Assembly: GCF_001412595.2 (NCBI RefSeq)
Contig: NZ_CP012640.2
Location: 248,001-312,000, forward strand
Direction: 5' to 3'
DNA from: Massilia sp. WG5
GTDB lineage: Bacteria; Pseudomonadota; Gammaproteobacteria; Burkholderiales; Burkholderiaceae_D
Length of the DNA stretch: 64,000 nucleotides
In this document: positions 16,562 through 34,285 of the stretch, one piece after another
Numbering within the stretch: position 1 is the stretch's first letter
How the letters are laid out: each line of letters begins with the position of its first letter
Position numbers and translations under genes: made by a program
The notes under the pieces: model-generated
Told to the model about the DNA's origin: nothing
Seen by the model: the letters and a program-made list of their open reading frames with translations, nothing else
Databases searched by the model: none

Positions 16562-16585
16562 GCCTGCCGCGATTCGCCGGCCGGC

Positions 16586-17629: not shown

Positions 17630-17667
17630 ATCAAGCCTTTCAGGTTATAAAAATGTTCGAGAAGCGC

Positions 17668-17701: not shown

Positions 17702-17736
17702 CGATTTTCCGGGTCCGCGCCATGCGCGCCACCGCT

Positions 17737-17750
17737 TTGATCGCGATCAA
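17737..17750. promoter_or_regulatory. Perfect FNR/Anr box upstream of the phaB remnant
   Basis: TTGATCGCGATCAA is a perfect FNR/Anr site (TTGAT-N4-ATCAA), fully palindromic. Its centre is 80 nt before the ATG of the broken phaB gene, the same distance as the related box before phaC. It also lies about 115 nt upstream of the divergent pstS. Confidence 0.75.
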
Positions 17751-17823
17751 ATCTCCCGTACAGGCGCCGCTCCTGGCGCCGCGGGCCAGGTCTGACGGAC
17801 GTAGCAAAGAGCAAGGAGGCGGC

Positions 17824-18391
17824 ATGGGACGGATGGCGGTAGTGACGGGCGGCACGCGCGGGCCTGGCCGGGCTCACCCAGGCCCTGGGTCCGGCGGAGA
17901 TTTTGGTCAACAATGCCGGCGTCACCGCCGATGCCGCTTTCCACAGGATGGGCAAGGAGCAGTGGTGGCGGGTCGTGCGCACCAACCTGGGCTCGGTGTT
18001 CAATATGAGCCGCCTGGTGATCGAGGGCATGCGCGAGCGGCGCTTCGGGCGTATCGTCAACATCAGTTCGATCAACGGGCGCAAGGGACAGGCGGGCCAG
18101 TGCAACTATGCGGCGGCCAAGGCCGGCATCCTCGGCTTCACCAAATCGCTGGCGCTGGAGAATGCCGGCGACGGCATCACGGTCAATGCCGTCGCGCCGG
18201 GCTACTGTGACACGCCAATGGTGGCCGCCGTGCGGCCCGAGGTCCTGCAGGGCATCGTCGCCGGCATTCCGGTCGGGCGGCTCGGCATGCCGGAAGACAT
18301 CGGGCGGGTGGTCGCCTTCCTGGCCGACGACGCCGCCGGCTTCATCACGGGCGCGACCTTCGACGTGAACGGCGGACAGTACCTGGCGTGA
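17824..18391 (+). pseudogene. phaB: Acetoacetyl-CoA reductase (phaB) with internal deletion and frameshift
   Basis: The intact enzyme (about 245 aa) reduces acetoacetyl-CoA to (R)-3-hydroxybutyryl-CoA for PHA synthesis. Here the normal N-terminus MGRMAVVTGGTRG runs for 13 codons. At about 17862 the sequence jumps, one frame over, into LAGLTQALGPAEILVNNAGVTAD, which corresponds to residue 72 or so of PhaB. Roughly 55-60 codons, including the rest of the glycine-rich NADPH motif, are missing. The remainder is clean: NISSINGRKGQAGQCNY with the Ser-Tyr-Lys catalytic set, and the C-terminal VNGGQYLA. A TTG at 17903 could start a 162-aa product without the cofactor loop. Convergent with phaC. Confidence 0.85.
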
Positions 18392-18449
18392 GCCCGGGCC
18401 TGCGGCCATGCGCCATCAGCACCGGCAGGGCCGCTTCAGGCCGGCAGGT

Positions 18450-20234
18450 TCATGGCTGCAGCACGTAGGTGCCGGGCGCGTCGCCGAGGCTGGGCGCCGG
18501 CGCGGGCGGCGCCGTCATCGGGCCGGCATGGCGCGCCAGCCAGGACTCCCAGGCCGGCCACCAGCTGCCCTGGCGCTCTTCGGTCGCGGCCTGCCAGCTC
18601 TCGGGGTCGACGTAGCGGCCGTCGTGGGCATGGGTAGCGATCTGGTAGCTGCGCTTTGGCGTGCCGGGCGGCGACACCACCCCCGCATTGTGCCCGCCCG
18701 AGGTCAGCAGGAAGGTGACGTCGGTGTCGCTCAGGGGCACGACCTTGTACACCGAGCGCCACGGCGCCACGTGGTCGGTGAGGGTGCCCACCGCGAAGAC
18801 CGGGATGTGGATGTCGGTCAGGGCCACCGGCCGGCCGTCGACGATGTAGCGCGAGCTGGCCAGGCTGTTTTTCAGGAACAGCTTGCGCAGGTACTCCGAG
18901 TGCATGCGGTAGGGCATGCGGGTCGCGTCCGCGTTCCAGGAAGCGAGGTCGTTGTCCTTGTCGGGAATGTCGAGCAGGTAGTGGCGCAGGCGGCGTGACC
19001 AGATCAGGTCGCTCGAACGCAGGAGCTGGAAAGCGCCCGCCATCTGGCGCGTGTCGAGGTAGCCCTGCTGCCACATCACGGCTTCGAGGAAGGCGACCTG
19101 GCTGTCGTCGATGAACAGCGACAGCTCGCCCGGCTCGGTGAAGTCGACCTGGGCCGCCAGCAGGCTCATGCTGGCCAGGCGGTGGTCGCCGTCGCGCGCC
19201 ATCGCCGCCGCCGCGATCGCCAGCAGCGTGCCGCCGATGCAGTAGCCGCAGGCGTTCACCTTCGGGGCGCCGGTCTGGGCGACGATCGCGTCGAGCGCCG
19301 CCATGATGCCGAGACGGCGGTAATCGTCGAGCGAGAGTTCGCGGTCCTCGGCCTCCGGGTTCTTCCAGGACAGCACGTAGACGGTGTGGCCGTGCCCGAC
19401 CAGGTAGCGCACCAGCGAATTCTCCGGCGACAGGTCGAGGATGTAGTACTTCATGATCCAGGCCGGCACGATCAGCAGCGGCACGGCGTGCACCTGCGGC
19501 GTCTGCGGCGCGTAGCGGATCAGTTCGACCAGGTGGTTCTGCAGTACCACGCTGCCTGGCGTGATGGCGACCTCGCGTCCCGGGCGGCAGCTGACCTCGG
19601 GTGCGCCGCCGGTCAGCGCCCGCCGCGCGTCGCCGGCGGCGCGCACCGTTCCGCGCACGAGATTCTGGCCGCCGCTGGACAGCGTCGCCTGCTGCGCCAC
19701 CGGGTTGGTGGCGATGAAATTCGACGGCGCCACGCCATCCAGGAGCTGGCGCGTCATGAAGGTCACCACATCGCTGTGATGCGGCGAGACCCCGCGCACG
19801 CCGGTGGTGGCGCGGTGCCACCATTGCTGGGCGAGCAGGAAGCCCTGGCTGAGCTGGTTGTAGGGCCAGGTGTGCCAGAGCGGATCGGAAAAACGCTTGT
19901 CCTGGGCCAGCGGGCGCACCGGTTCGTCGGCCGTGCCGAGCATGGCGCTGGCGCTGTAGTGCAGCCAGCGCTCGGCGTTGGCTGCAGCCTGTACCGTCAG
20001 TTCCATCTGCTTGGCCGGCGACAGCAGCAGGTGTGCGCCCCAGTCCTGCCAGGCCGCCGCCAGTGCGGCGGGGGAGATGTAGCCGGTCAGCCGGCCCAGC
20101 CAGGCGTTCACGGCCAGGTCGATCTGCGCATGTTCGGGGCTGGCCTCGGGATACTGGTGGCGCCAGGCGCCGCCTTGCCAGGCGCTGGCGTCGCGCCGCT
20201 GCTCGCTGGCCGGGATGTCGGAGCGGATGTTCAT
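18450..20234 (-). CDS. phaC: Poly(3-hydroxyalkanoate) synthase (594 aa)
   Basis: Polymerises (R)-3-hydroxyacyl-CoA into PHA on cytoplasmic granules. Class I-type length. The lipase-like box GYCIGG places the catalytic Cys at about residue 332. The catalytic Asp is in VGTLTDHVAPW and the His in TSGGHNAGVVSPPG. Other synthase signatures are the PhaC N-terminal domain (PSNFIATNP) and LLIVPAWIMKYYILDLSPENS. The start is MNIRSDIPAS with GGGGA upstream; an ATG 8 codons earlier is possible. An FNR-type box lies 75-88 nt upstream. The convergent phaB is broken, so the monomer must come from another reductase or the (R)-hydroxyacyl pathway. Confidence 0.95.
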   Translation of the reverse strand: MNIRSDIPASEQRRDASAWQGGAWRHQYPEASPEHAQIDLAVNAWLGRLTGYISPAALAAAWQDWGAHLLLSPAKQMELTVQAAANAERWLHYSASAMLGTADEPVRPLAQDKRFSDPLWHTWPYNQLSQGFLLAQQWWHRATTGVRGVSPHHSDVVTFMTRQLLDGVAPSNFIATNPVAQQATLSSGGQNLVRGTVRAAGDARRALTGGAPEVSCRPGREVAITPGSVVLQNHLVELIRYAPQTPQVHAVPLLIVPAWIMKYYILDLSPENSLVRYLVGHGHTVYVLSWKNPEAEDRELSLDDYRRLGIMAALDAIVAQTGAPKVNACGYCIGGTLLAIAAAAMARDGDHRLASMSLLAAQVDFTEPGELSLFIDDSQVAFLEAVMWQQGYLDTRQMAGAFQLLRSSDLIWSRRLRHYLLDIPDKDNDLASWNADATRMPYRMHSEYLRKLFLKNSLASSRYIVDGRPVALTDIHIPVFAVGTLTDHVAPWRSVYKVVPLSDTDVTFLLTSGGHNAGVVSPPGTPKRSYQIATHAHDGRYVDPESWQAATEERQGSWWPAWESWLARHAGPMTAPPAPAPSLGDAPGTYVLQP

Positions 20235-20308
20235 GCGTGGTTCCCCGTGGAGACTCATTGGGCTTGCATCACTCTAAGGCAGGGGGATGTCCAGGGCCAG
20301 TGGCACAC

Positions 20309-20322
20309 TTGATGTGCGTCAA
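20309..20322. promoter_or_regulatory. FNR/Anr-type box upstream of phaC
   Basis: TTGATGTGCGTCAA fits TTGAT-N4-ATCAA with one mismatch. Its centre is 81 nt before the phaC start (minus strand), nearly identical to the spacing of the perfect box before the phaB remnant. The GGDEF-EAL gene on the plus strand begins 150 nt away and is a less likely target. Confidence 0.6.
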
Positions 20323-20467
20323 AAGGCGCCAACAATTCGCGCTGCCGCCGACGCTGTGCAGGGCCGCGGCGCCGGGCCGTGCGCCGTATCGCGCTTGCCG
20401 CGCTGTGCGCGCGGCGTTCGTGCTAGGCTGTGCATCTCGTCGACCAAGCCGTTTTACGCCTGCGCTC

Positions 20468-22594
20468 ATGGACTCTTCGATTGCCGCGGACATCCGGCGG
20501 CACTTCGACGACCTGCTGGAACACTTGCCGGCAGGGGTCGTCGTGCATGATGCCGATGGGCGCATCCTGTCGGCGAACCGGCTCGCCTGCGAACTGCTCA
20601 AGCGGAGCCCGGCGCAGCTGAAGGACACGGCCCCCACGGCGGCCGCCTGGACCTTCATCCGCTCGAACCGGCAGCCGATGCCGCCGGAAGAGTTTCCTGT
20701 GAACGTGGTCCTGCGCACCGGCGACAAGGTCTCGCAGGTGGTCGTCGGCATCCCGGCGACGGAACAGGAAGCGGAACGCTGGCTGATCTGCAATGCCTAT
20801 CCGGAATTCGACGACGCTGGAGAGTTGTCCCGGGTCGTGGTGTGCTTCACCGACTGCACCGCCCTGAAGCGCGCCAAGCAGCGACTGCAGAAATCCGAGC
20901 GGCGCCTGCAACTGGTGCTGCGCGGCTCCAGCGATGCGTCATGGGATGTCGACCTGGTCAGCGGCGAAGTCTATTACTCGCCGCGCTGGTGGAGCATGCT
21001 CGGCTACGAGCCGAATGCGCTGCCCGCCGACGGCGAGCTGTGGTTGAGGCTCACCCATCCGGACGACCGTACGCGGGTCGAAGCCTTCATGCGCGAACTG
21101 CTGCTGTCGCGGCGCGAGAGCTACGGCATCGAATTGCGGCTGCGGCACCGCGACGGCCACAACGTCCCGGTGCTGTCGCGCGGCTATGTCCTGCGCCGTT
21201 TGGACGGCCGGCCGCTGAGGATCTCGGGAACGAACACCGACCTGACCGAACGCAAGCAGGCCGAGCGGCGCATCTACGAGGCGGCCTATTTCGACCACCT
21301 GACCGGCCTGCCGAACCGCCGTTTCCTGATCGAGGAACTGGACAAGGTACTGGCGCGCAGCGACCGTTCCGGCCACCACGGCGCGCTGCTGTTCCTCGAC
21401 CTCGACAATTTCAAGCTGCTCAACGATACCCTCGGCCACGACCTCGGCGATGCGCTGCTGCGCCAGGTCGCGCAGCGCCTGCGGCTCACGCTGCGCCACA
21501 GCGACCAGCTGGCGCGCCTGGGCGGCGACGAATTCGTGATCGTGCTCGAGGAACTGGGCGCAGCCCTGGGAGAGGCGGTGACGGAGGCGAAGCACGTGGT
21601 CGAGAAGCTGCTGGCGGCCTTCGAACAACCGTTCTACCTGTCCGGGCGCCTGATCCTGAGCACGCCAAGCATCGGCATCGCGCTGTTCGAGGGCAGCGCG
21701 GCCGGCATCGAGACCCTGCTCAAGCAGGCCGACCTGGCGATGTACAAGGCCAAGGCGGAGGGTCGGAACACCGCGCGCTTCTTCGATCCGGGCATGCAGT
21801 CGGCGGCCGACCGCCAGGCATCGCTGGAGAGCGCGCTGCGCCGCGGCGTGAAGCGGCACCAGTTCGTGCTGTACTGCCAGCCGCAGTTCAGCGGCCACGG
21901 ACACCTGGTCGGCGCCGAAGCCCTGGTCCGCTGGCGCCGCGAGGACGGCGTCCTGGTCAGCCCGGGCGAATTCATCGGGCTGGCCGAATCGACCGGCCTG
22001 ATCCTGCCGCTCGGGCAGGACGTCCTCGAACAGGGCTGCCGCGCGCTGGCGCGCTGGAGCACCGACCGCGCGCTCTCCAGGTTGAAGCTCGCGGTCAACG
22101 TCAGCGCGCGCCAGTTGCGCGACGCCGAGTTCCCGCAGACCGTGGCCGCGATCCTGGCCGGCACCGGCGCACCGGCCGACCGGCTGTGCCTGGAGCTGAC
22201 GGACAGCGCGTTCGCCGGAAACCTCGGCGAGATCGTCGAGCGCATGCGCGAACTGTGCGGGCAGGGCGTGTGCTTCTCGCTGGACGATTTCGGCACCGGC
22301 TATGCCTCGCTCGCCTGCCTGAAGCGGATCCCGCTGGCGGCCCTGAAAATCGACCGCTCCTTCGTGCACGACGCCCATGTTGACCCGGAAGCAGCGCCCA
22401 TGGTGCAGGCCATCATCGCGCTGGCGCACACGCTCAATCTCGACATCGTCGCGAAAGGCGTCGAGCACGAGGACCAGCGCCGCTTCCTGGTGTCGGGGGG
22501 CTGCGGGGGGCTGCAGGGCAACCTGCTGGGGCCGGCGATGCCGATCGAGGACTTTGAACGTCTCTACAGCGCGTCCGGCATGGGACATGCATGA
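20468..22594 (+). CDS. PAS-PAS-GGDEF-EAL protein with altered EAL catalytic residue (708 aa)
   Basis: Soluble cyclic di-GMP protein: PAS 1 (about 15-130), PAS/PAC 2 (about 145-265, SGTNTDLTERKQAE), GGDEF (motif 352-356 intact) and EAL (484-486 intact). The RxxD inhibitory site is present (RHSD, nine residues before GGDEF). In the EAL domain NVSARQ, DDFGTGYASL and LKID are kept. However, the conserved AEGVE reads AKGVE: codon 663 is AAA (22454-22456) where Glu is expected. ELTE reads ELTD and QGY reads QGN. The protein is therefore likely mainly a diguanylate cyclase. No clear ribosome site precedes the ATG at 20468, so the start is less certain. It lies 101 nt upstream of the TonB receptor gene. 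Confidence 0.88.
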   Translation: MDSSIAADIRRHFDDLLEHLPAGVVVHDADGRILSANRLACELLKRSPAQLKDTAPTAAAWTFIRSNRQPMPPEEFPVNVVLRTGDKVSQVVVGIPATEQEAERWLICNAYPEFDDAGELSRVVVCFTDCTALKRAKQRLQKSERRLQLVLRGSSDASWDVDLVSGEVYYSPRWWSMLGYEPNALPADGELWLRLTHPDDRTRVEAFMRELLLSRRESYGIELRLRHRDGHNVPVLSRGYVLRRLDGRPLRISGTNTDLTERKQAERRIYEAAYFDHLTGLPNRRFLIEELDKVLARSDRSGHHGALLFLDLDNFKLLNDTLGHDLGDALLRQVAQRLRLTLRHSDQLARLGGDEFVIVLEELGAALGEAVTEAKHVVEKLLAAFEQPFYLSGRLILSTPSIGIALFEGSAAGIETLLKQADLAMYKAKAEGRNTARFFDPGMQSAADRQASLESALRRGVKRHQFVLYCQPQFSGHGHLVGAEALVRWRREDGVLVSPGEFIGLAESTGLILPLGQDVLEQGCRALARWSTDRALSRLKLAVNVSARQLRDAEFPQTVAAILAGTGAPADRLCLELTDSAFAGNLGEIVERMRELCGQGVCFSLDDFGTGYASLACLKRIPLAALKIDRSFVHDAHVDPEAAPMVQAIIALAHTLNLDIVAKGVEHEDQRRFLVSGGCGGLQGNLLGPAMPIEDFERLYSASGMGHA

Positions 22595-22633
22595 AGTTTC
22601 CATAAAGACACATGCTATGCTGCAAATATAAGT

Positions 22634-22662
22634 TTGTAACGTGCAAATTGGATAAGTTACAA
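22634..22662. promoter_or_regulatory. Inverted repeat in the TonB-receptor promoter region
   Basis: TTGTAAC (22634-22640) and GTTACAA (22656-22662) form 7-bp arms separated by 15 bases, in an AT-rich stretch 34 nt before the receptor start. The spacing of half-sites (about two helical turns) suits a dimeric regulator. Which protein binds is unknown; the hybrid kinase encoded downstream has no DNA-binding domain. Confidence 0.4.
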
Positions 22663-22695
22663 TGTCACGAGGAAATTACCGTCTGACTTGTAATC

Positions 22696-24663
22696 ATGTC
22701 CAGCCCCCACAAGATTTACCCGGCCCCGGCCGGCTCCGGCGGCATCCGTTTGCGCACACTGGTACGTTGCCTGGTCCTGACCACGGCAGCGGCGGCCGCG
22801 CATGCGGAGACGCTTTCTTCCGAACCCCGGGATCTCGGCGACCTGAGCCTGGAAGAGCTGGCGAATATCCAGGTCACCTCGGTATCGCGCCGTCCGGAAT
22901 CGCTGTCGGATGCGGCCTCGTCGATCTTCGTGATCACCGGCACCGACATCCACCGCGCGGGCGCCACCACGCTGCCGGAAGCCCTGCGACTGGCGCCCAA
23001 CCTGCAGGTGGCGCGTGTCGATGCGCGCAACTATGCGGTCACGGCGCGCGGCTTCAGCAGCGCCTTCGAGAACAAGCTGCTGGTCCTGATCGACGGTCGC
23101 ACCGTGTACTCGCCGCTGTTTTCCGGCGTGTACTGGGACGTGCAGGACGTGGTGCTGGAAGACGTCGAGCGCATCGAGGTCATCAGCGGCCCGGGCGCCA
23201 CGCTGTGGGGCGCGAATGCGGTCAACGGCGTCATCAACATCATCACCAAATCGGCGGCCGCCACCCAGGGCACGCTGATCACCGCCGCCGGCGGCAAGGA
23301 CGAGCGCAACGGCGCCGTGCGCTACGGCGGCGCGCTCGCCAACGGCGGCCACTACCGGGTGTACGGCAAGTACGCCGCCAACGACGACCTGAACACCGAA
23401 AAGGGCGTGCGTTCGTCCACCGGCTGGCACCGCCAGCAGGCCGGCTTCCGCGCCGACTGGGGCGACGCGGCGCGCAATGCCGTGGTCCAGGGCGATGTCT
23501 ATGACGCCAGCCTGCACCAGCGCGGCACGGCCGACATCCAGGTGCGCGGCGCCAATCTGCTCGGACGCGTCAACCACAACTTTGCCGGCGGCTCGACCGC
23601 GACCGTGCAGATGTACTGGGACCACACCGAACGCGACCAGCCGCTCGCCTTCGTCGAACACCTCGACACCTTCGACCTGCAGCTCCAGCACTCGGTCGGC
23701 CTGGGCGAGGGCCACCGCCTGGTCTGGGGCGGCGGCTATCGTTTGGGACATGACCGCGTGCAGAACGGCGCCGCCTTCGGCTTCCTGCCCGGGACCCTGA
23801 ACCTGCACTGGGCCAATTTGTTCGCCCAGGACGAGATGGCGCTGCGCGACGACCTGCGCCTGACCGCCGGGCTTAAGTTCGAGGACAACAACTACACCGG
23901 TGTGGAAGTCCTGCCGACCCTGCGCCTGGCCTGGAATCCGAAGCCGTCGACGCTGGTCTGGAGTTCGCTCTCGCGCTCGGTGCGCGCGCCATCGCGGATC
24001 GACCGCGATTTCTATTCGCCGACCGTGCCGGCGGTCGTCAAGGGCGTGCCCCAGTACGCGATCGCGGGCGGGCCGGATTTCGAATCCGAAGTGGCGAACG
24101 TGTTCGAACTCGGCTACCGCGCGCAACCCCTGCCGGCGCTGTCGTATTCGGCCACGGCCTTCTACGGTCGCTACGACAGGCTGCGCACCCTCGAGCCGAA
24201 CCCGAACGGCACCGGTTCCGTGTTCCGCAACCTGGCGGACGGCCGCACCCGCGGCATCGAAGCCTGGGCCAGCTGGCAGGCCGCCAAGTCCTGGCGCGTC
24301 TCCGGCGGCGGCGTGGTGCAGCGGGTCGACACCGCCCTGGCTGCCGGCAGCAGGGACGCCTCCGGCGCGACCGGCCTCGCCACGAGCGATCCGAGCCACT
24401 ACTGGATGCTGCGCTCTTCCTACGATGTCGCGGCCGGGCAGGAATTCGACCTGACGCTGCGCCACGTCGGCGCGCTGGAAAAGCCGGCCGTGCCATCGTA
24501 CACGGCGGTCGACCTGCGTTACGGCTGGCGCATCCGCGATGGGCTGGAGCTGTCCCTAATCGGGCGTAACCTGTTCGATCCGCACCACGCCGAATTCGGC
24601 GCCCCGGGCGCGCGCAGCGACTACGAGCGCGCCGTTCTTCTCAAGCTGGTCTGGAACCTGTAA
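22696..24663 (+). CDS. TonB-dependent outer membrane receptor (655 aa)
   Basis: Outer-membrane gated channel or ligand sensor. Signal peptide ending AAAHAE. Then comes the short element DLGDLSLEELANIQVTSVSRR, typical of a receptor subgroup found beside signalling genes, and a plug domain (about 65-180: GTDIHRAGATTLPEALRLAP, LVLIDGRTVYSPLFSGVYWD, GPGATLWGANAVNGVINIITK). The beta-barrel ends LLKLVWNL. It is small for a TonB receptor, consistent with that subgroup. The YfiR-like gene starts 4 nt after its stop, so it is the first gene of a four-gene unit. Ligand unknown; no metal- or siderophore-specific clue. Confidence 0.9.
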   Translation: MSSPHKIYPAPAGSGGIRLRTLVRCLVLTTAAAAAHAETLSSEPRDLGDLSLEELANIQVTSVSRRPESLSDAASSIFVITGTDIHRAGATTLPEALRLAPNLQVARVDARNYAVTARGFSSAFENKLLVLIDGRTVYSPLFSGVYWDVQDVVLEDVERIEVISGPGATLWGANAVNGVINIITKSAAATQGTLITAAGGKDERNGAVRYGGALANGGHYRVYGKYAANDDLNTEKGVRSSTGWHRQQAGFRADWGDAARNAVVQGDVYDASLHQRGTADIQVRGANLLGRVNHNFAGGSTATVQMYWDHTERDQPLAFVEHLDTFDLQLQHSVGLGEGHRLVWGGGYRLGHDRVQNGAAFGFLPGTLNLHWANLFAQDEMALRDDLRLTAGLKFEDNNYTGVEVLPTLRLAWNPKPSTLVWSSLSRSVRAPSRIDRDFYSPTVPAVVKGVPQYAIAGGPDFESEVANVFELGYRAQPLPALSYSATAFYGRYDRLRTLEPNPNGTGSVFRNLADGRTRGIEAWASWQAAKSWRVSGGGVVQRVDTALAAGSRDASGATGLATSDPSHYWMLRSSYDVAAGQEFDLTLRHVGALEKPAVPSYTAVDLRYGWRIRDGLELSLIGRNLFDPHHAEFGAPGARSDYERAVLLKLVWNL

Positions 24664-24667
24664 AGCC

Positions 24668-25243
24668 GTGCGAGACCGTCGAGTGTTTTTCCATCGCGCC
24701 CTCATCGCCCTGTGGCTCGGCGCGGCAGGCCTGAACATGGCAGCCCCGGCAGCGGCCGCCGGCACCGTCGTCGCCAGCGAGGAGCGGGTCGAAGCCGCCT
24801 ATCTGCACAAGTTCCTGAATTACGCGGACTGGCCGCCGGCCTCCTTCCCGCAGGCCGATACGCCCTATGTGATCGGCGTCGCCGGCGACGATGCGGTGGC
24901 CGACGAACTGGCGCACATCGCCGCCGGGCGCAGCGTCAACAACCGCGGCGTGATCGTCAAGCGCCTGCTGCCCGGCGACGCGGTGAACGGGCTGCACATG
25001 CTGTTCGTCGGCCGCGGCGAGCGTGCCCGGCTGGCCCAGTGGCTGCACCAGGCCAAGGGGCGGCCGATCCTGACCGTGTCCGCCTTCGACGGCGCGCTGG
25101 AGCAGGGCAGCATCCTGAATTTCCGGGTCGTCGACGACCGCGTCCGCTTCGAGGTGTCGATCGACGCGGCCGAGCAGAGCGGCATCCACCTGAATTCCCG
25201 TCTTTTTAGTGTCGCCACGAACGTGGTAAAAGGAAACCGTTGA
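24668..25243 (+). CDS. YfiR/DUF4154-family periplasmic protein (191 aa)
   Basis: Small exported protein of the YfiR family. Starts with GTG; the signal peptide ends near AAAAAG. The family signature VEAAYLHKFLNYADWP at about residues 37-52, the central VIGVAGDDAVADEL and HMLFVGRGERARL, and the terminal FEVSIDAAEQSGIHLNSRLFSVA with an asparagine-serine-arginine strand all fit. In Pseudomonas, YfiR holds the diguanylate cyclase YfiN inactive through its periplasmic domain. Here the next gene is a hybrid histidine kinase instead, starting at this stop codon. Role inferred: periplasmic gate of that kinase. Confidence 0.85.
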   Translation: MRDRRVFFHRALIALWLGAAGLNMAAPAAAAGTVVASEERVEAAYLHKFLNYADWPPASFPQADTPYVIGVAGDDAVADELAHIAAGRSVNNRGVIVKRLLPGDAVNGLHMLFVGRGERARLAQWLHQAKGRPILTVSAFDGALEQGSILNFRVVDDRVRFEVSIDAAEQSGIHLNSRLFSVATNVVKGNR

Positions 25244-25245
25244 TC

Positions 25246-27675
25246 ATGTTCGGCGCCGTTCGACAATCCATCTCACGCAAGCTGGTGCTTGGGGTGCTGG
25301 TCACCACACTGACCACGCTGCTCATCGCCTGCGCCTCGATGCTGGTGCTGGACATCCATAATTACCAGACCGGCTGGGCCGGCGACCTGCGCGCGCAGGC
25401 CGACATCCTGGCCGAGGTCACCAAGCCGGCCCTCGAATTCAACGACACCAAGGTGGCGCAGGAAAACCTGCTGCAGCTGCGCGCCAGGCCGCTGATCGTC
25501 AGCGCCGCGGTCTACCGCGCGGACGGTTCGGTGTTCGCGTCCTACGGCAAGACCCCGCAGGACCTGCAGCGGGTGCCGAAACGCATGCCGCGCGCCGGCA
25601 ACATGATCGACGGCGGCCAGATCGCCGTCGCCACGCCGATGCTGCGCAACGGCGACCTGGTCGGCACCGTCTACGTCGAAGCCGCATACCCGCTGATGGC
25701 CCAGGTGCGGCGCTACCTGACTATCCTCGGCGCCGTGCTGCTGGGCAGCCTGCTGATCGCCATGCTCATGTCGAGCTGGCTGCAGGCGGCGATCATCAAG
25801 CCCGTGCTGGCGCTGACCGCGGCGGTCGACCAGGCGATCCGCCGCCGCGACTTCTCGATACGCGTGCCGAAGACCACCGACGACGAAGTCGGGGTGCTGG
25901 TCGATGCGTTCAACGGCATGCTCGACGAAGTCGGCCAGCGCGCGCGCGAACTCGAGCAGTCGCACGCCCAGATGCGGCACGAGGTGGACGTCCGTATCGA
26001 GGCCGAGGAAGCGGTGCGGCAGCTGAACAATTCGCTGGAAGAGCGGATCCGCGAACGCACCACCGAACTGGAGAAGACCCACGCCCAGCTGCGCCAGTCG
26101 CAGAAGCTGGAAGCGATCGGCCAGCTCACCGGTGGCGTCGCGCACGACTTCAACAACGTCCTGCAGGTCATCGCCGGCAACCTGCAGCTGCTGCAGATGT
26201 CCCTGGCGGGCAATCCGGAGGCGCAGCGCCGCCTCGAGTCGGCGGCCTTCGCGGCCGACCGCGGCGCCAAGCTGTCCTCGCAGCTGCTGGCGTTCGCGCG
26301 CCGCCATCCGCTGCAGCCGGTGGCGACGAACATCGGCCGGGTCCTGCGCGGCATGGACGACCTGCTGCGCCGCGCCCTGGGCGAGTCGGTGCAGATCGAG
26401 ACCGTGGTCGCCGGCGGGCTGTGGACTACCCTGGCCGACCCGCACCAGCTCGAGAACGTGATCCTGAACCTGGCCATCAATGCGCGCGACGCCATGCAGG
26501 GCGACGGCCGGCTCACGCTGGAACTGAACAACGCCATGCTGGACGATAACTACGTGCTGCACGAACCGGAAGTGACGGCCGGCCAGTACGTGATGCTGGC
26601 GATCTCGGACACCGGCTGCGGCATGCCGCCCGAAGTCATCGCGCGCGCCTTCGAGCCCTTCTTCACCACCAAGCGCGAAGGCGAGGGCACCGGCCTGGGC
26701 CTGTCGATGGCCTACGGCTTCGTCAAGCAGAGCCATGGCCACATCCGCATCTACAGCGAAGTCGGCAGCGGCACCACGATCAAGATCTACCTGCCGCGCT
26801 CGATGCAGCCGGAAGTCGAACTGCCGAACCTGCGCAACGCGCCGGTGCTGGGCGGCTCGGAAACCATCCTGGTGGTCGAAGACGACCTCGCGGTGCAGGC
26901 GACCGTGGTCGACATGCTGCAGGGCCTGGGCTATCGCGTGCTGAAGGCCAGCGACGGCCAGGGCGCGCTGACCATCCTGCAGAGCGGCATCCCGATCGAC
27001 CTGCTGTTCACCGACGTCGTGATGCCGGGCCCGGTGCGCAGCATCGAGGTCGCGCGCCAGGCCAAGCAGATGTTCCCGGCCATCGAGGTCCTGTTCACCT
27101 CGGGCTATACGCAGAACGCCATCGTCCACGGCGGCCGCCTCGATCCGGGCGTGGAGCTGATCAGCAAGCCTTACCGCCGCGACGAGCTGGCGCGCAAGAT
27201 CCGCCAGCTGTTCGCGTCGCGCAAGGTAGGCGCGGCCCCGGCTTCTCCCGCGCCCGCACCCGCCCCGGCGGCGCCGGCCGCGGGCGAGGAGCCGGGCCTG
27301 ACCGTCACCACCAACCCGATGGCGATCCTGGTGGTCGAGGACAACCCGGACGCGCGCGCCATGCTGTCGGAGCTGCTGCTGATCCTCGGCCATGCGGTCG
27401 AAGGCGTGGGCAGCGCCGAACAGGCGCTGGAAGTCCTGGCGCAGAAGCGCTTCGACATCCTGCTGACCGATCATTCGCTGCCGGGCATGTCCGGACTCGA
27501 ACTGGCGCGCAAGGTGACGGCGCAGGGATCCGGCATGAAGATCATCTTCTCGTCCGGCTACGGTGCGCCGGACACGCCCGACCTCGAGATCCGCCCGGCC
27601 TTCCTGCCAAAGCCCTTCACCCTGGCAGCGCTGCAGAAGGTGCTGGGCGAGGCGACCTGCGCGGACGGCGTGTAA
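25246..27675 (+). CDS. Hybrid sensor histidine kinase with YfiN-like periplasmic domain and two receiver domains (809 aa)
   Basis: Inner-membrane kinase. TM1 about 12-36; a periplasmic CHASE8-like domain about 37-155 (PALEFNDTKVAQENLLQL, then SAAVYRADGSVFASY); TM2 about 160-185; HAMP; coiled coil; HisKA with the phosphorylated His at about residue 300 (GGVAHDFNNVLQ); HATPase (NLAINARDAM, DTGCGM, GTGLGLSM). Then come receiver 1 (Asp about 590, FTDVVMPG), a proline-alanine linker and receiver 2 (Asp about 742, LTDHSLPGMSG). ATG at 25246 is used; a TTG at 25240 overlapping the yfiR stop has better ribosome spacing. No output domain, so it must phosphorylate another protein. Confidence 0.9.
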   Translation: MFGAVRQSISRKLVLGVLVTTLTTLLIACASMLVLDIHNYQTGWAGDLRAQADILAEVTKPALEFNDTKVAQENLLQLRARPLIVSAAVYRADGSVFASYGKTPQDLQRVPKRMPRAGNMIDGGQIAVATPMLRNGDLVGTVYVEAAYPLMAQVRRYLTILGAVLLGSLLIAMLMSSWLQAAIIKPVLALTAAVDQAIRRRDFSIRVPKTTDDEVGVLVDAFNGMLDEVGQRARELEQSHAQMRHEVDVRIEAEEAVRQLNNSLEERIRERTTELEKTHAQLRQSQKLEAIGQLTGGVAHDFNNVLQVIAGNLQLLQMSLAGNPEAQRRLESAAFAADRGAKLSSQLLAFARRHPLQPVATNIGRVLRGMDDLLRRALGESVQIETVVAGGLWTTLADPHQLENVILNLAINARDAMQGDGRLTLELNNAMLDDNYVLHEPEVTAGQYVMLAISDTGCGMPPEVIARAFEPFFTTKREGEGTGLGLSMAYGFVKQSHGHIRIYSEVGSGTTIKIYLPRSMQPEVELPNLRNAPVLGGSETILVVEDDLAVQATVVDMLQGLGYRVLKASDGQGALTILQSGIPIDLLFTDVVMPGPVRSIEVARQAKQMFPAIEVLFTSGYTQNAIVHGGRLDPGVELISKPYRRDELARKIRQLFASRKVGAAPASPAPAPAPAAPAAGEEPGLTVTTNPMAILVVEDNPDARAMLSELLLILGHAVEGVGSAEQALEVLAQKRFDILLTDHSLPGMSGLELARKVTAQGSGMKIIFSSGYGAPDTPDLEIRPAFLPKPFTLAALQKVLGEATCADGV

Positions 27676-27678
27676 GGC

Positions 27679-28536
27679 ATGGAGGGCGCGTTCGCCGCCC
27701 TGGCCCTGGCGGTGCTGCTGCCGTGGGCCCCGCCGATTCGCGGCCGGCGTGACTGGACCTGGTGCGCGGGCCTGCTGCTGGCCTGCCTGGCCGGCCTGCT
27801 GTCGGGGGCGGTGGACTGGCGGGCGCCGGTGTCGGCGACGCTGTTCGCTGCGCTGGCCTGGCGCGCACGCGAGGCCCGGCAAAGCCGGCTGCGAGTGGCG
27901 CTGCTGGTACTGGCCGGCCTGTGCGCCTTCCTGTTCGCGCTGCACCGGGTGCCGGGTTTCCTCAATCCGGTGCTGGCGGAAGGCATCGTCTTTTCGAAGG
28001 GCGCCGCGCCGCTCACCCTGCGCCTGAATGTCGACACCGCGGTGGCGGGTATCGTGCTGGTGGGCGTGTTCTGCCGGCCGATCCGCAGCGTCGAAGAATG
28101 GCGCGCCATGCTGCGCCGGGTGTGGCCGGTGTCGGCGGCCACCCTGGTCGTCGTGCTGGGCATTGGCTGGGCGCTCGGCTATGTGCGGCCCGACCCGAAG
28201 TGGACGCCGTATTCCGCCTTCTTCCTGGCTTCCAACCTGCTGTTCACCTGCGTCACCGAGGAAGCCTTCTTCCGCGGCCTGCTGCTCGAGCGCGTGGCGC
28301 GCGCCATGGACCGCGGGCGCGCCGGCGCGGTGATCGCCACCGTGCTGAGCGCCGTGCTGTTCGGCCTGGCCCATGCGCGCGGCGGCGCGCCGCTGGTGCT
28401 GCTGGCGACCGTCGCCGGCCTGTTCTACGGCGCGGCCTACCTGAAGTCGCGCCGCATCGAGGGCGCGATCCTGACGCACTTCGCGCTCAACGCCGTGCAC
28501 TTCCTGGCCTTCAGCTATCCGGCGCTGGCGCGCTGA
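27679..28536 (+). CDS. CPBP family intramembrane glutamic protease (285 aa)
   Basis: Polytopic membrane protein, about 7-8 helices. All three CPBP/Abi motifs are present: TEEAFFRG (EExxxR, about residue 194), FGLAHARG (FxxxH, about 230) and HFALNAVHF (HxxxN, about 273). Relatives cleave prenylated or membrane proteins or act as immunity factors. Its start is 3 nt after the kinase stop, so it belongs to the receptor-YfiR-kinase operon and may process a membrane component of that system. The substrate is not known. Confidence 0.88.
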   Translation: MEGAFAALALAVLLPWAPPIRGRRDWTWCAGLLLACLAGLLSGAVDWRAPVSATLFAALAWRAREARQSRLRVALLVLAGLCAFLFALHRVPGFLNPVLAEGIVFSKGAAPLTLRLNVDTAVAGIVLVGVFCRPIRSVEEWRAMLRRVWPVSAATLVVVLGIGWALGYVRPDPKWTPYSAFFLASNLLFTCVTEEAFFRGLLLERVARAMDRGRAGAVIATVLSAVLFGLAHARGGAPLVLLATVAGLFYGAAYLKSRRIEGAILTHFALNAVHFLAFSYPALAR

Positions 28537-28550
28537 AGCGGCGCCCGCGG

Positions 28551-28578
28551 TTGACGAAAAAAGCAGGAGGTATATACT
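28551..28578 (+). promoter_or_regulatory. Sigma-70 promoter of a structured leader
   Basis: TTGACG (28551-28556), a 16-base spacer, and TATACT (28573-28578), each one mismatch from consensus. The predicted start of transcription is near 28585, immediately after the CPBP gene. It reads into a 23-codon ORF, two hairpins and then the Usp gene. Confidence 0.65.
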
Positions 28579-28610
28579 CGGGCCGTCACCGACCAGCCAG
28601 GGGCATCGAG

Positions 28611-28682
28611 ATGGACACATGCTCTGCCTTCCGTGCGCGCCTTGCGCACCTCGCCACGCGAGACATCGCCGGCCTTTTCTAG
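28611..28682 (+). CDS. Possible 23-residue leader peptide
   Basis: ATG at 28611 with AGGGGC seven bases upstream, 23 codons, stop TAG at 28680-28682. The peptide begins MDTCSAFRAR and ends IAGLF. It carries three arginines in the first two thirds but no run of one amino acid. It sits about 26 nt after the predicted transcription start, and its stop codon abuts the base of a strong hairpin. That is the arrangement of translation-coupled leaders. No homology recognised; it could be chance, but ribosome site, promoter and hairpin coincide. Confidence 0.45.
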   Translation: MDTCSAFRARLAHLATRDIAGLF

Positions 28683-28777
28683 GCTCGGCGAGGTCCCGAA
28701 CCTGCCGTTCCAGGACCTCCCGAGCACCCCGCCCGATCGTTCAATGAGCCGGCGCACGAGCGCGCCGGCGCCGTTTT
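28683..28777 (+). terminator. Two successive hairpins, the second terminator-like, between leader ORF and Usp gene
   Basis: Hairpin 1, 28683-28725: GCTCGGCGAGGTCC pairs with GGACCTCCCGAGC with one bulge, and the loop can pair further (GAAC/GTTC). Hairpin 2, 28748-28769: GCCGGCGC and GCGCCGGC around a 6-base loop, followed by GCCGTTTT at 28770-28777, a short T-run. Together with the promoter at 28551 they would define an RNA of about 190 nt, or an attenuated leader of the Usp gene that starts at 28824. Confidence 0.55.
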
Positions 28778-28823
28778 CCGTCGACGTCCGGCCAGGGTAT
28801 GCCTGGCCGTGGAGGGTCTTGTC

Positions 28824-29714
28824 ATGCCGAAACCTGTCCTCGTGATCTCCGAATCCCCGCATCCGGTCGCCCACGCGGCCGCGCGCGCAGCGATGCTGGC
28901 GGCTGCGCTGCAATGCCGGCGCATGGAATTCCTGTGCGCGGCGCGCGGCGCCGGCACCCTGTGCAAGGGCATGGAGGAGGTGGAGCACGCCGGTGCGGCG
29001 GCGCAGCTGCGCTTCGGCGTCCACTGCTCGGCGCAATTCGATACCGGCGCGTTCCCGGCGGCCCTGATGCAGCGCGCGCTCGATGCCGATCCGCTGCTGA
29101 TCGCGGCCGCCTGGCAGGCGCACGAATGGTGGCCGATCCTGCACAACTTCAACCTGCTGCGCGACGTCTCCCGTGCCAGCCTGACGCCGGTCCTGCTGGT
29201 GCGCCAGCCGGCCCGCAAGCCCTATGCGCACGCGGTGTTCCCGAGCGACTTCTCGCCCGACTCGCTCGACACCCTGCAAGCCGCGCTGAGACTGCTGCCG
29301 GCCACGCGCCTGACGATCGTGCACGCCTTCCACGTCCCCGGCGAAGGGCAGATGCGCGCCGCGCGCGTGCGCGACGAGGCGATCGGCGCCTGCCGGCGCA
29401 AGGCGGAGCTGGCGGCACAGGAAGCGTTCGCGGCGCTGGCCGCGCGACTGCAGCCGCATCCGGCCAGGCTGTCGCTGGTGTTGCTGCCCAGGCCCACCGG
29501 GCTTGCAGTCGCGGAATACGTCAACGCGGTCGATGCCGACATCATCGTCCTGTCAGGCAGCCAGCGCTGGCTGGTCGACGACTGGTCCTGGCAGCACCGC
29601 GCCCGCGAGCTGATCGAGAAGACCTCGAGCGACCTGCTGATGGTGACGCCGGCGAAACCGGGGCCCTGCAGGCTGGTGGGACTGGACCTGCTGGCGGACC
29701 GCTCGGAGGCATGA
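28824..29714 (+). CDS. Divergent universal stress protein, tandem-domain (296 aa)
   Basis: Two Usp-like halves. The second is recognisable: FPSDFSPDSLDTLQAALRLLP, RLTIVHAFHVPGE, DADIIVLSGS, and a final strand SSDLLMVTP. The ATP loop (Gx2Gx9G) is not preserved: the region reads GSQRWLVDDWSWQHRA, so nucleotide binding is doubtful. The first half contains several cysteines and lacks the loop too. Start ATG 28824 with GGAGG at correct spacing. It lies behind a structured leader and is convergent with the LysR gene. Function unknown. Confidence 0.75.
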   Translation: MPKPVLVISESPHPVAHAAARAAMLAAALQCRRMEFLCAARGAGTLCKGMEEVEHAGAAAQLRFGVHCSAQFDTGAFPAALMQRALDADPLLIAAAWQAHEWWPILHNFNLLRDVSRASLTPVLLVRQPARKPYAHAVFPSDFSPDSLDTLQAALRLLPATRLTIVHAFHVPGEGQMRAARVRDEAIGACRRKAELAAQEAFAALAARLQPHPARLSLVLLPRPTGLAVAEYVNAVDADIIVLSGSQRWLVDDWSWQHRARELIEKTSSDLLMVTPAKPGPCRLVGLDLLADRSEA

Positions 29715-29736
29715 GGGCCCGGGGCGCGAGCGTGCT

Positions 29737-30660
29737 TCAGGCGCCGGCGGCCTGGCCGCGTTCCCAGTAGCCCGGCGTGTTGTAGATGCCCTTCAGGTAA
29801 TCGACGAAATGCCGGATCTTGGCCGGCAGGTAGCGCTGCTGCGGATAGACGGCCTGGATCGGGTAGTCGACCACGGCGAATTCGTCCAGCACCGTGATCA
29901 GCTCGCCGCGCTTCAGCTCGGCCTGGATCTCCCAGGTCGAGCGCCAGCCGATGCCGAGTCCCTGCCTGACCCAGTCGTACAGCAGTTCGCCGTCGTTGCA
30001 GGCGAGGTCGCCGTCGACCCGCACCGCGAACAGCTTGCCGTCGCGCTGGAAGGTCCAGCCGCGCTGCTGGCCGCCCTGCAGGTTGAAGGCCAGGCAGTTG
30101 TGACGCGCGAGATCCTCGGGCTGGGCCGGCGTGCCCTTGCGTTCGAAGTAGGCCGGCGTGCCGCACACCACGCGGCGGTTCGGGAACAGCGGGATCGCGA
30201 CATAGTTCGGGTCGAGCACCGCGCCGATCCGGATCGACATGTCGTAGCCCTCCCGCACCAGGTCCACCACGCTGTCGGTGAAGTTGAAGGACATCTTCAG
30301 CTCCCCGTGGATGGCGCGGAAGGCCGGCGCGTGCGGGGCCACGTGCGAGCGCCCGAAGGCCGCCGGCGCCGACACCACCAGGTGGCCGCGCACCGTGCTG
30401 CGTCCCTCGGTGATGCTGTTCTCGGTGATCTCGAAATCGCGCAGCAGCTGGCGGCAGGGCTCGAGGAACTGTTCGCCCAGCGCCGTCAGCGACAGGCCGC
30501 GCGTCGAGCGGTGCATCAGGCGCACCCCGAGCCGGCGCTCGAGCGCGTCCAGGCGCCGGCCCATCACCACCGGCGTCACGCCTTCGATCATGGCGGCGGC
30601 CGCGAAACTGCCTTTTTCCGTGACGAGCACGAAGCTGCGGATTTCCGTGTAACGGTCCAT
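29737..30660 (-). CDS. LysR family regulator, probable regulator of the gcl operon (307 aa)
   Basis: N-terminal helix-turn-helix (MDRYTEIRSFVLVTEKGSFAAAAM, then VTPVVMGRRLDALERRLG) and a LysR substrate-binding domain of the type found in aromatic/organic acid regulators (STVRGHLVVSAPAAFGRSHVAP, YDMSIRIGAVLDPNYVAIPLF). The start at 30660 is set by GGAGG. It is transcribed away from gcl across a 121-bp region with a palindrome, the usual arrangement of a LysR regulator and its target. The inducer is presumably glyoxylate or a related acid (inference). Confidence 0.88.
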   Translation of the reverse strand: MDRYTEIRSFVLVTEKGSFAAAAMIEGVTPVVMGRRLDALERRLGVRLMHRSTRGLSLTALGEQFLEPCRQLLRDFEITENSITEGRSTVRGHLVVSAPAAFGRSHVAPHAPAFRAIHGELKMSFNFTDSVVDLVREGYDMSIRIGAVLDPNYVAIPLFPNRRVVCGTPAYFERKGTPAQPEDLARHNCLAFNLQGGQQRGWTFQRDGKLFAVRVDGDLACNDGELLYDWVRQGLGIGWRSTWEIQAELKRGELITVLDEFAVVDYPIQAVYPQQRYLPAKIRHFVDYLKGIYNTPGYWERGQAAGA

Positions 30661-30674
30661 GCATCCTCCATTCA

Positions 30675-30687
30675 ATACTTTAAGTAT
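30675..30687. promoter_or_regulatory. Candidate operator between LysR and gcl
   Basis: ATACTT-T-AAGTAT, a perfect 13-bp palindrome, lies 15 nt upstream of the LysR start and about 100 nt before gcl. This is where LysR proteins bind to control themselves and the divergent target. It does not strictly match T-N11-A. Confidence 0.4.
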
Positions 30688-30781
30688 CGGCAGAGACAAT
30701 AGTAGCAGCAATTCAACATTGCGGCGCTTGGGGCTATGCTGACTTCATCGATCCGATTCCAACCATCCAATGGAGGCGAGC

Positions 30782-32572
<1,791 letters not shown>

Positions 32573-32582
32573 GGAGAACACC

Positions 32583-33362
32583 ATGCCAAGATTCGCAGCC
32601 AACCTGACGATGCTGTTCAATGAACTGCCTTTCCTGGACCGCTTCGAGGCGGCCTCGAACGCGGGCTTCCGCGGCGTCGAGTACCTGTTTCCCTATGCCT
32701 TCGAGGCCGCGGCGCTGGCGGAGAGGCTGGACCGCCACGGCCTGGTCCAGGTCCTGCACAACCTGCCGGCCGGCGACTGGGACAAGGGCGAGCGCGGCAT
32801 CGCCTGCCATCCCGGCCGCGCGGGCGAATTCCAGGACGGCGTCGGCCGCGCCATCGACTATGCGCGCCAGCTGGGCTGCCGCCAGCTCAACTGCCTGGTC
32901 GGGATCGCACCCGCCGGCGCCGATCCGGAGCGCGTGCGGCGCACCGTGGTCGACAACCTGCGCTTCGCGTCGGGCAAGCTGAAGGAAGCCGGCATCCGCC
33001 TGCTGGTCGAGCCGGTGAATACCTTCGACATCCCGGGCTTCTGGCTGAACCGCACTGCACAGGCCATCGCCCTGATCGAGGAAGTCGATTCCGACAATCT
33101 CTGGCTGCAGTACGACATCTACCACGCCCAGCGCATGGAAGGCGAGATCGGCAACACCATCGCCAAGCACCTGGCGCGCATCGCCCACATCCAGCTGGCC
33201 GACAACCCGGGCCGCAACGAGCCGGGCACCGGCGAGATCAACTTCCCGTGGTTGTTCCGGCACATCGACCGGCTCGGCTACGACGGCTGGATCGGCTGCG
33301 AGTACAAGCCGGCCGCCGGCACGGCAGCGGGACTGGCGTGGCGCCAGGCCCTGGCCGGTTGA
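32583..33362 (+). CDS. hyi: Hydroxypyruvate isomerase (259 aa)
   Basis: Interconverts hydroxypyruvate and tartronate semialdehyde. TIM-barrel of the AP-endonuclease 2/xylose isomerase family: PRFAANLTMLFNELPFLDRF at the start, LLVEPVNTFDIPGFWL (metal-binding Glu, about residue 143), LQYDIYHAQRMEG, HIQLADNPGRNEPGTGEI and IGCEYKP with the second Glu. Length is the usual 258-260. AAGGAG precedes the ATG. The next gene begins 32 nt downstream. Confidence 0.95.
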   Translation: MPRFAANLTMLFNELPFLDRFEAASNAGFRGVEYLFPYAFEAAALAERLDRHGLVQVLHNLPAGDWDKGERGIACHPGRAGEFQDGVGRAIDYARQLGCRQLNCLVGIAPAGADPERVRRTVVDNLRFASGKLKEAGIRLLVEPVNTFDIPGFWLNRTAQAIALIEEVDSDNLWLQYDIYHAQRMEGEIGNTIAKHLARIAHIQLADNPGRNEPGTGEINFPWLFRHIDRLGYDGWIGCEYKPAAGTAAGLAWRQALAG

Positions 33363-33394
33363 ACCGACCCTTATCACATCTGGAGGAACGAGAC

Positions 33395-34285
33395 ATGGCA
33401 AACATCGGATTCATCGGGCTGGGCATCATGGGTGCCCCGATGGCGGGACACCTGCTCAAGGCGGGCCACCGCCTGTTCACCTACACCCACGGCGAGACCC
33501 CGGCGCAGCTGCTGGATGCCGGCGCCGCGGCCTGCGCCAGCAGCGCCGAGGTGGCGCGCCAGGCGGATATCGTCATCATCATGGTGCCGGACACGCCGCA
33601 GGTGGAGGAGGTGCTGTTCGCGGAGAACGGCGTGGCTGCGGGCCTGAGCGCCGGCAAGGTCGTGGTCGACATGAGCTCGATCTCGCCGGTCGCCACCAAG
33701 GACTTCGCGCGCCGCATCGATGCGTTGGGCTGCGACTACCTGGACGCGCCGGTGTCGGGCGGCGAAGTCGGGGCCAGGGCGGCGAGCCTGACCATCATGG
33801 TGGGCGGCAGCGAGGCGGCCTTCGACCGCGTGCTGCCGCTGTTCCGGCTGATGGGCAAGAACGTCACCCTGGTCGGCGGCAACGGCGACGGCCAGATCAC
33901 CAAGGTCGCCAACCAGATCATCGTCGCGCTGACCATCGAGGCGGTCGGCGAGGCCCTGCTGCTGGCGGCCAAGGCCGGCGCCGATCCGGCCCGGGTGCGG
34001 GAAGCGCTGATGGGCGGCTTCGCCTCCTCGCGCATCCTGGAAGTGCATGGCGAGCGCATGATCAAGCGCACTTTCGCGCCGGGCTTCCGGATCGACCTGC
34101 ACCGCAAGGACCTCAACCTGGCCTTGACCACCGCGCGCCAGCTCGGCGTGGCGCTGCCGAACACGGCTACCGCCCAGGAGCTGTTCAACACCTGCGCCGC
34201 CCACGACGGCGGCAACTGGGACCACTCGGCCATGGTGCGCGCGCTCGAGGTGATGGCCAACTTCGCGATCGGCCAGGAAGCGTAA
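33395..34285 (+). CDS. glxR: 2-hydroxy-3-oxopropionate (tartronate semialdehyde) reductase (296 aa)
   Basis: NAD(P)H-dependent reduction of tartronate semialdehyde to D-glycerate. Beta-hydroxyacid dehydrogenase family: Rossmann GFIGLGIMGAPMAGHLLKAGH, substrate loop DAPVSGGEVGARAASLTIMVGG (about 118-138), catalytic Lys in GDGQITKVANQIIV (about 170), and the C-terminal helix LDLHRKDL-like segment. GGAGG upstream of the ATG. Its stop codon overlaps the next start (TAATG), so translation is coupled to the kinase. Confidence 0.95.
   Translation: MANIGFIGLGIMGAPMAGHLLKAGHRLFTYTHGETPAQLLDAGAAACASSAEVARQADIVIIMVPDTPQVEEVLFAENGVAAGLSAGKVVVDMSSISPVATKDFARRIDALGCDYLDAPVSGGEVGARAASLTIMVGGSEAAFDRVLPLFRLMGKNVTLVGGNGDGQITKVANQIIVALTIEAVGEALLLAAKAGADPARVREALMGGFASSRILEVHGERMIKRTFAPGFRIDLHRKDLNLALTTARQLGVALPNTATAQELFNTCAAHDGGNWDHSAMVRALEVMANFAIGQEA

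Follow-up and report, generated by a model that had tools for sequence, protein, structure and literature searches.

TonB receptor, YfiR and sensor kinase: what looks like a widespread chain for carrying an outside signal into the cell

In the 64,000-nucleotide stretch of the Massilia sp. WG5 genome analysed here (contig NZ_CP012640.2, positions 248,001 to 312,000; hereafter the window), genes for a TonB-dependent receptor, a YfiR-like periplasmic protein and a hybrid histidine kinase stand directly one behind another. The question raised by this locus is whether the three act together, in the manner of YfiBNR, which is studied as a biofilm switch in Pseudomonas. An earlier note on this DNA had read the cluster as a rewired Yfi system, with a TonB receptor as outer-membrane partner, a kinase as output and a membrane protease closing the operon. 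Our analysis shows the trio to be a real and widespread module that belongs to an already catalogued gene set and varies the known Yfi core. As a gene neighbourhood the chain has good support; the YfiR-CHASE8 step is likely and the receptor step a proposal, and the whole looks like a chain that carries an outside signal into the cell.

The trio and its known relatives

Receptor, YfiR, kinase and a CPBP-type protease are encoded by four intact open reading frames on the same strand, spaced by 4, 2 and 3 nucleotides (nt), in agreement with the tight packing of 2-4 nt described earlier. The features of the trio (TM, transmembrane helix) are:

22696 to 24663, forward strand: TonB-dependent receptor of the TOL_0244 family, with Plug and TonB barrel (NF053590, 977 bits, cut-off 645)
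24668 to 25243, forward strand: YfiR-like periplasmic protein (DUF4154, TOL_0243 family) with a GTG start (NF053591, 193 bits, cut-off 125)
25246 to 27675, forward strand: hybrid histidine kinase of 809 residues, TM-CHASE8-TM-HAMP-HisKA-HATPase-REC-REC (Pfam)
25384 to 25677, forward strand: CHASE8 periplasmic domain, kinase residues 47-144 (PF17152, 52.9 bits)
25426 to 25446, forward strand: PALEFND motif in CHASE8 (alignment with DgcN of Escherichia coli)

NCBIfam holds one model for each trio member, namely NF053590 (TOL_0244 receptor), NF053591 (TOL_0243 YfiR-like) and NF053592 ('HK near YfiR-like', in full 'sensor histidine kinase, YfiR-like protein-associated'). All three window proteins scored above the curated cut-offs, the kinase with 275 bits against 194. 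The window trio belongs to this catalogued set, whose three genes also lie side by side here and whose model names state no function. The YfiR-like protein further matched PF13689 (DUF4154, YfiR/HmsC-like) with 125 bits against a cut-off of 24.9. Within the kinase, which has an alternative TTG start at 25240, the usual H-box, nucleotide-box and receiver motifs were located and are kept. The domain search bore out both a periplasmic segment of the YfiN kind and the two receivers of the kinase output (HisKA-HATPase-REC-REC). No response regulator adjoins the window kinase. The source genome comprises 6.2 Mb in 3 contigs and holds 52 Plug matches, and the closest named relatives of its proteins are from Massilia.

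As in YfiBNR of Pseudomonas aeruginosa and yfiR-dgcN-yfiB of E. coli, the YfiR gene of the window lies directly 5' of a gene for a membrane protein with CHASE8/PAS and HAMP, and the F-x-D patch, a proposed contact for YfiR in YfiBNR, is also kept. The window differs in its output (hybrid kinase HisKA-HATPase-REC-REC rather than GGDEF), in its outer-membrane component (a TonB receptor where YfiBNR has the OmpA-like lipoprotein YfiB), in its YfiR (no cysteine, whereas YfiR of YfiBNR has two cysteine pairs) and in its position on a separate tree branch. HmsCDE and AwsXRO are further Yfi-like systems. FecA/FpvA transducers and PfeA-PfeSR also couple a TonB receptor to transmembrane signalling. Receptors of the FecA type carry an STN signalling domain, whereas none was found on the window receptor, for which Pfam at E<=1 returned Plug, two barrel models and nothing else. 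PfeS is not known to work with a separate periplasmic protein between receptor and kinase, where the window has YfiR. Systems of the FecA type further have a cognate anti-sigma/sigma pair, and the neighbours identified in the window are the GGDEF-EAL, YfiR, kinase and CPBP genes.

Kinase-output Yfi systems have been known since 2012. In the available text of their study, Malone et al. proposed a modular YfiR-YfiN[PAS] core as the older form and reported that, at a distance from Pseudomonas, YfiB is mostly missing and the GGDEF domain of YfiN is swapped for GGDEF-EAL, HPt or kinases (PMC3375315). The window resembles that core in having a kinase output without YfiB. The word 'TonB' occurs nowhere in the main text of PMC3375315, and the receptor link and the co-divergence described below are additions of the present analysis. 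'Rewired' is therefore a misleading term, since kinase outputs were reported in 2012, form the majority in our samples and leave YfiBNR as one side branch. Searches of open-access PubMed Central turned up nothing that treats the trio as a system for signalling. The sole TOL_0244 paper found, in which the word YfiR is absent, is a proteomic study of Thalassolituus oleivorans, whose TOL_0244 protein would be the one meant by the NCBIfam name, judging by the shared locus tag. Its available text reports TOL_0244 up sevenfold on n-C28 alkane relative to Tween 80, likens the protein to OmpS of Alcanivorax, said to be needed for alkane detection, and on this proteomic basis treats it as an alkane receptor (PMC6304351).

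Conservation of gene order and the local neighbours

Of 200 genomes sampled at phylum level 50 had YfiR (PF13689), and of 143 at class level 18, the source genome being in both sets. The surroundings of YfiR were annotated with profiles derived from these loci, the window and E. coli. The phylum sample comprised 60 of 72 rows (leaving out two source-genome rows, six rows of genome G103 that stand in other sets, two below the cut-off and two more), and the class sample all 31 rows not from the source genome, one of them below the cut-off. Named loci were the best 80 of 135 and hence biased to close relatives. Loci L033-L052 (hand-picked) and L082-L092 (further rows) entered the set of 88 YfiR/CHASE8 pairs used below and were excluded from the rates.

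A CHASE8 gene stood directly 3' of YfiR at 52/60 phylum, 17/31 class and 78/80 named loci. The CHASE8 genes of the phylum sample encoded 46 kinases and five GGDEF-type proteins, with one cut by a contig end, and 77 of the 78 named ones were kinases. The receptor-yfiR-kinase order had been put forward as a feature that should be conserved, and its YfiR-kinase part is widely kept. A receptor lay directly 5' of YfiR at 30/60 phylum, 13/31 class and 45/80 named loci, and both neighbours were present at once at 27/60, 7/31 and 43/80. A further 12 phylum loci showed, by their coordinates, the permuted order YfiR-kinase-receptor (a contig end leaves one of these receptors as a fragment, and one is split in two frames). 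OmpA matches were found at four of the 60 fetched phylum loci, against 30 with a receptor directly 5', and an OmpA profile from E. coli YfiB found no OmpA-like gene in window positions 16001-34000, which upholds the earlier suggestion that a TonB receptor takes the place of YfiB. The receptor link is frequent and not obligatory.

This recurrence bears on the scarcely credible alternative that the genes are packed by chance in a dense, GC-rich genome. Members of the three families turn up together in different classes, although the source genome has only 52 Plug matches in 6.2 Mb; for the YfiR-CHASE8 pair, conservation refutes chance packing. The local neighbours speak in its favour, in that close spacing alone does not mean partnership, because the three orthologous loci used for comparison have neither the CPBP gene nor the upstream cyclase gene. 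The neighbouring features are:

20468 to 22594, forward strand: gene for a PAS-PAS-GGDEF-EAL protein (Pfam)
22634 to 22662, no strand: perfect inverted repeat TTGTAAC-N15-GTTACAA 5' of the receptor gene, a possible operator
27679 to 28536, forward strand: CPBP (Rce1-like) intramembrane protease (PF02517, 71.7 bits)

A likely diguanylate cyclase had been placed upstream, and a GGDEF gene is indeed there, ending 101 nt before the receptor start. It encodes a possibly bifunctional PAS-PAS-GGDEF-EAL protein rather than a plain cyclase. As a conserved partner it was rejected, being absent at the orthologous loci L034, L035 and L037. The half-sites TTGTAAC and GTTACAA each occur once in the 64-kb window, that is, in the repeat itself. 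No such repeat was seen 5' of the three orthologous receptors, and a conserved operator was rejected.

The protease would be part of the system if all four genes formed one functional operon in which CPBP has YfiR, the receptor or the kinase as its substrate, a very improbable reading. Its gene follows the kinase by 3 nt on the same strand, and a CPBP paralogue of the source genome (L184) adjoins a TonB receptor, as does the CPBP gene at L197. In a survey of 62 genomes of the genus, CPBP relatives occurred in 22, including the source genome. Among the 20 of 23 non-window CPBP rows fetched (omitting both halves of a split entry in G056 and a fragmentary one in G006) none had a DUF4154 gene, a CPBP profile run over 154 loci matched the window's own protein only, and no CPBP gene was found at the orthologous loci. 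CPBP was therefore rejected as a fourth member, and with it the earlier claim that the protease belongs to the module; it and the upstream GGDEF-EAL gene are local neighbours. At L184 and L197 the CPBP gene adjoins a receiver gene as well as the receptor, an arrangement unlike that of the window.

Co-divergence and the YfiR-CHASE8 interface

Co-divergence was computed from simple identity distances, so that small differences should not be over-read, over 88 YfiR/CHASE8 pairs (a hand-typed locus list with no place entered twice, including the window and E. coli). YfiR and CHASE8 distances correlated with r=0.78, a value reached in one of 2000 draws that swapped paralogue partners inside 15 genomes. 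Over 70 kinase loci the correlation was 0.82 for YfiR-CHASE8 (partial correlation 0.73), 0.58 for YfiR-kinase core and 0.55 for CHASE8-kinase core. At the 39 kinase loci with a receptor it was 0.71 for receptor-YfiR (partial value 0.65, controlling for the kinase core) and 0.76 for receptor-CHASE8. The divergence of YfiR, CHASE8 and receptor is thus more closely coupled than that of CHASE8 and the kinase core, which share a chain.

A plausible site of contact lies in the motif quoted from the periplasmic segment, whose core proved real and near-invariant. In the same 88 aligned loci, the equivalent of YfiN F70 is F in 87, the D two residues later is kept in 87, and the equivalent of YfiR F162 is F in 74; both phenylalanines are retained in the window proteins. 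According to the available text of PMC3375315, YfiR-insensitive YfiN alleles include A66, A67, V68 and F70; YfiR alleles with enhanced binding lie around F162. The window PALEF aligns with AAVVF of YfiN, and PALEFND is the equivalent of this 'AAVVF' patch, the proposed YfiR-binding site (F70 in P. aeruginosa). YfiR and CHASE8 are likely to touch. No natural YfiR-CHASE8 fusion was noticed among the annotated loci. Locus L151 (5476-8118) holds a natural fusion of another kind, one frame of 881 residues with YfiR, a long stretch, a membrane helix, a histidine kinase and a receiver; it has no CHASE8 match, and the coiled-coil look of the stretch and the membrane helix were judged by eye.

The model of the window YfiR (pLDDT, the predicted local distance difference test, 93.6) matched YfiR in the PDB (4yn9_B, E 2.4e-8, TM score 0.70/0.75). 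The CHASE8 model (pLDDT 86) is PAS-like, with PAS-like sensor domains (WalK, 3cwf, CitA) among its best structure matches, and has a long first helix that stops at residue 64, so that F65 at the helix end would, by topology, be membrane-distal. In P. aeruginosa, as far as the available texts go, the YfiB-binding surface of YfiR overlaps the surface proposed for YfiN (PMC4655355, PMC4887326), and the YfiR pocket takes F57 of YfiB and, weakly, vitamin B6 (VB6) and tryptophan (PMC4887326). Because the two surfaces overlap and the pocket also accepts small molecules, a ligand could compete with the kinase for YfiR.

In a reading of opposite sign, YfiR would be a liganded activator comparable to LuxP acting on LuxQ: the receptor would import a compound, YfiR would bind it in the role of a small periplasmic binding protein, and the complex would turn the kinase on. 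The window YfiR model also matched substrate-binding proteins, more weakly than YfiR itself (8wgl, 5z6v and 3lkv, with 3lft weakly), and YfiR of P. aeruginosa binds small molecules, at affinities for VB6 and tryptophan of merely tens of millimolar in the available text of PMC4887326. The P. aeruginosa YfiR that has been studied acts as a repressor (PMC3375315, available text), and we consider activation by a liganded YfiR unlikely.

With the cysteine columns of E. coli YfiR equated to C71, C110, C145 and C152 of P. aeruginosa, cysteine was found in 55, 57, 6 and 6 of the 88 loci, and the second pair occurred at six loci, every one of the YfiN-type GGDEF kind. Redox control via cysteines is unlikely in the window YfiR, which has none. 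A joint YfiR and CHASE8 tree of the 88 loci required at least nine changes between kinase and GGDEF output and 18 changes in receptor presence, 'no receptor' meaning none directly upstream. The six GGDEF-only, receptor-less loci, including E. coli, clustered together (support 89, in a quick tree in which some branches are long). Five of them showed an OmpA-like gene, and they are exactly the six whose YfiR domains have four cysteines. L150, a further locus with GGDEF as its sole output, differs from these six in having a receptor. In this tree canonical YfiBNR appears as one small side branch.

A number of results weigh against the proposed chain. Profiles were built from the same loci that they annotate; however, all 70 rows of the CHASE8 alignment (68 relatives, the window and E. 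coli DgcN, omitting two halves of L095 and, earlier, L141 and L148, whose CHASE8 lies away from YfiR) matched Pfam CHASE8 at E<=0.01, 40 of 43 upstream receptors in the phylum and class samples had a plug match, and a rescan of these 40 and the window's receptor gave Pfam Plug in 41/41 and NF053590 at E<=1e-60 in 28/41, so that the CHASE8 and receptor assignments are no artefact of our own profiles. A receptor match anywhere in the fetched stretch was found at 47/60 phylum loci, and a plug match within about 16 kb also at 7/20 unrelated CPBP loci, so only direct adjacency is informative. In the class sample 14/31 YfiR genes had no CHASE8 gene directly 3'. In the 62 genus genomes, 34 of 97 TOL_0244 receptors had a YfiR over the cut-off directly 3' and 63 had none there, 44/78 YfiR genes had no TOL_0244 receptor 5', and eight orphan receptors close in score to the window's had no YfiR in the fetched stretch. 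A second YfiR-kinase locus of the source genome lacks a receptor. True receptor-YfiR pairing over 46 receptor loci ranked second, not first, of 32 within-genome assignments. All four YfiR cysteines are missing in the window, including the C145-C152 pair required for folding of P. aeruginosa YfiR in the available texts of PMC4655355 and PMC4887326, and the literature search found no experimental work on YfiR-kinases of this kind.

Several of these observations would suit a rather doubtful reading in which YfiR and kinase are the real unit, the receptor is a passenger or a co-regulated target (an uptake receptor that the kinase controls or is co-transcribed with), and the signal, for example envelope stress, enters via YfiR alone: YfiR-CHASE8 linkage (52/60) is much tighter than direct receptor linkage (30/60), many family receptors stand alone (63/97), and the second YfiR-kinase of the source genome does without one. 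Against it, receptor-YfiR co-divergence persists with the kinase core held constant (0.65), the trio persists under changed gene order at 12 loci, and 16 of the 32 YfiR genes without a CHASE8 gene, in four sets, still have a receptor directly 5'. L069 and L041 carry YfiR genes in pairs or in tandem, together with TonB receptors and with no CHASE8 gene alongside, which suggests that receptor-YfiR pairs may also act with distant partners. Three of the eight orphan receptors (L290, L295 and L296) face a receiver/kinase pair on the opposite strand.

A possible mechanism and its meaning

Gene content, domain identity, order conservation and co-divergence invite a scheme whose binding, sign, ligand and phosphotransfer steps we infer. 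We give an even chance to the trio being a signalling module of the Yfi kind in which the receptor brings the release signal, YfiR leaves CHASE8 and the kinase switches. The three proteins would span outer membrane, periplasm and inner membrane. YfiR would bind the membrane-distal, hydrophobic CHASE8 tip around F65 and hold the kinase in one state, probably off. Release would be signalled by the TonB receptor, most likely through a ligand, perhaps hydrophobic, imported to the periplasm, where it would fill the hydrophobic YfiR pocket and make YfiR leave the kinase, which would thus be gated by a TonB ligand; direct contact of YfiR with the receptor is an alternative route. A hydrophobic ligand is plausible because TOL_0244 was induced on a long-chain alkane (PMC6304351, available text). 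The freed kinase would then hand on phosphate by way of its receivers. The recipient would be a regulator whose gene lies elsewhere, plausibly one of the REC-GGDEF-EAL type, and the end effect may fall on cyclic di-GMP (c-di-GMP).

Regulators of this type stand beside related kinases. The source genome has four CHASE8 matches, two beside YfiR and two without detectable YfiR. The latter are kinases at L297 (4139-8834) and L298 (3840-8922), near 2.82 and 5.33 Mb of C1, each directly 5' of a REC-GGDEF-EAL(-REC) gene; no hidden YfiR was found by them with the HMMER filters off. Directly 3' of the YfiR-linked kinases, a GGDEF-containing gene was found at 5/46 phylum, 3/12 class and 10/77 named loci, and other receiver genes, some of them further kinases, at 16/46, 3/12 and 2/77. 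Since both kinds follow the kinases, c-di-GMP is a plausible but not the sole endpoint.

The N-terminal tail of the window receptor that precedes the plug reads LSLEELANIQVTSVSRR. The tail LS-EELANI-VTSVS is present in two of 30 source-genome receptors examined (of 52 Plug matches), and a strict tail pattern in 11/107 YfiR-adjacent receptors against 1/45 others. The second carrier is a TOL_0244 receptor at L288 (7370-9340; source genome C1:3026875-3028716), solitary and with an identical tail. Since one of two carriers is solitary, a YfiR-specific docking motif was rejected, and the tail marks the receptor family. A wider generalization is possible and offered tentatively: the commonest Yfi-type system of Pseudomonadota may be a TonB-receptor-gated kinase rather than a diguanylate-cyclase switch. 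Either a possibly hydrophobic ligand of the receptor or the LSLEELxN tail at its N-terminus would vie with the CHASE8 tip for the YfiR pocket, the receptor would reach a phosphorelay with no need of an STN domain or sigma factor, and YfiB-YfiN would be a side branch.

Overall, the trio looks like a relative, so far little studied, of the switch by which Yfi governs biofilms in Pseudomonas. If many YfiR proteins respond to a TonB receptor and control kinases, the family as a whole may serve to sense an imported compound, with alkanes as one candidate, and a large set of receptors and kinases without an assigned partner would gain a testable one. It would also provide a route for TonB-receptor signalling outside the STN/sigma-factor scheme.

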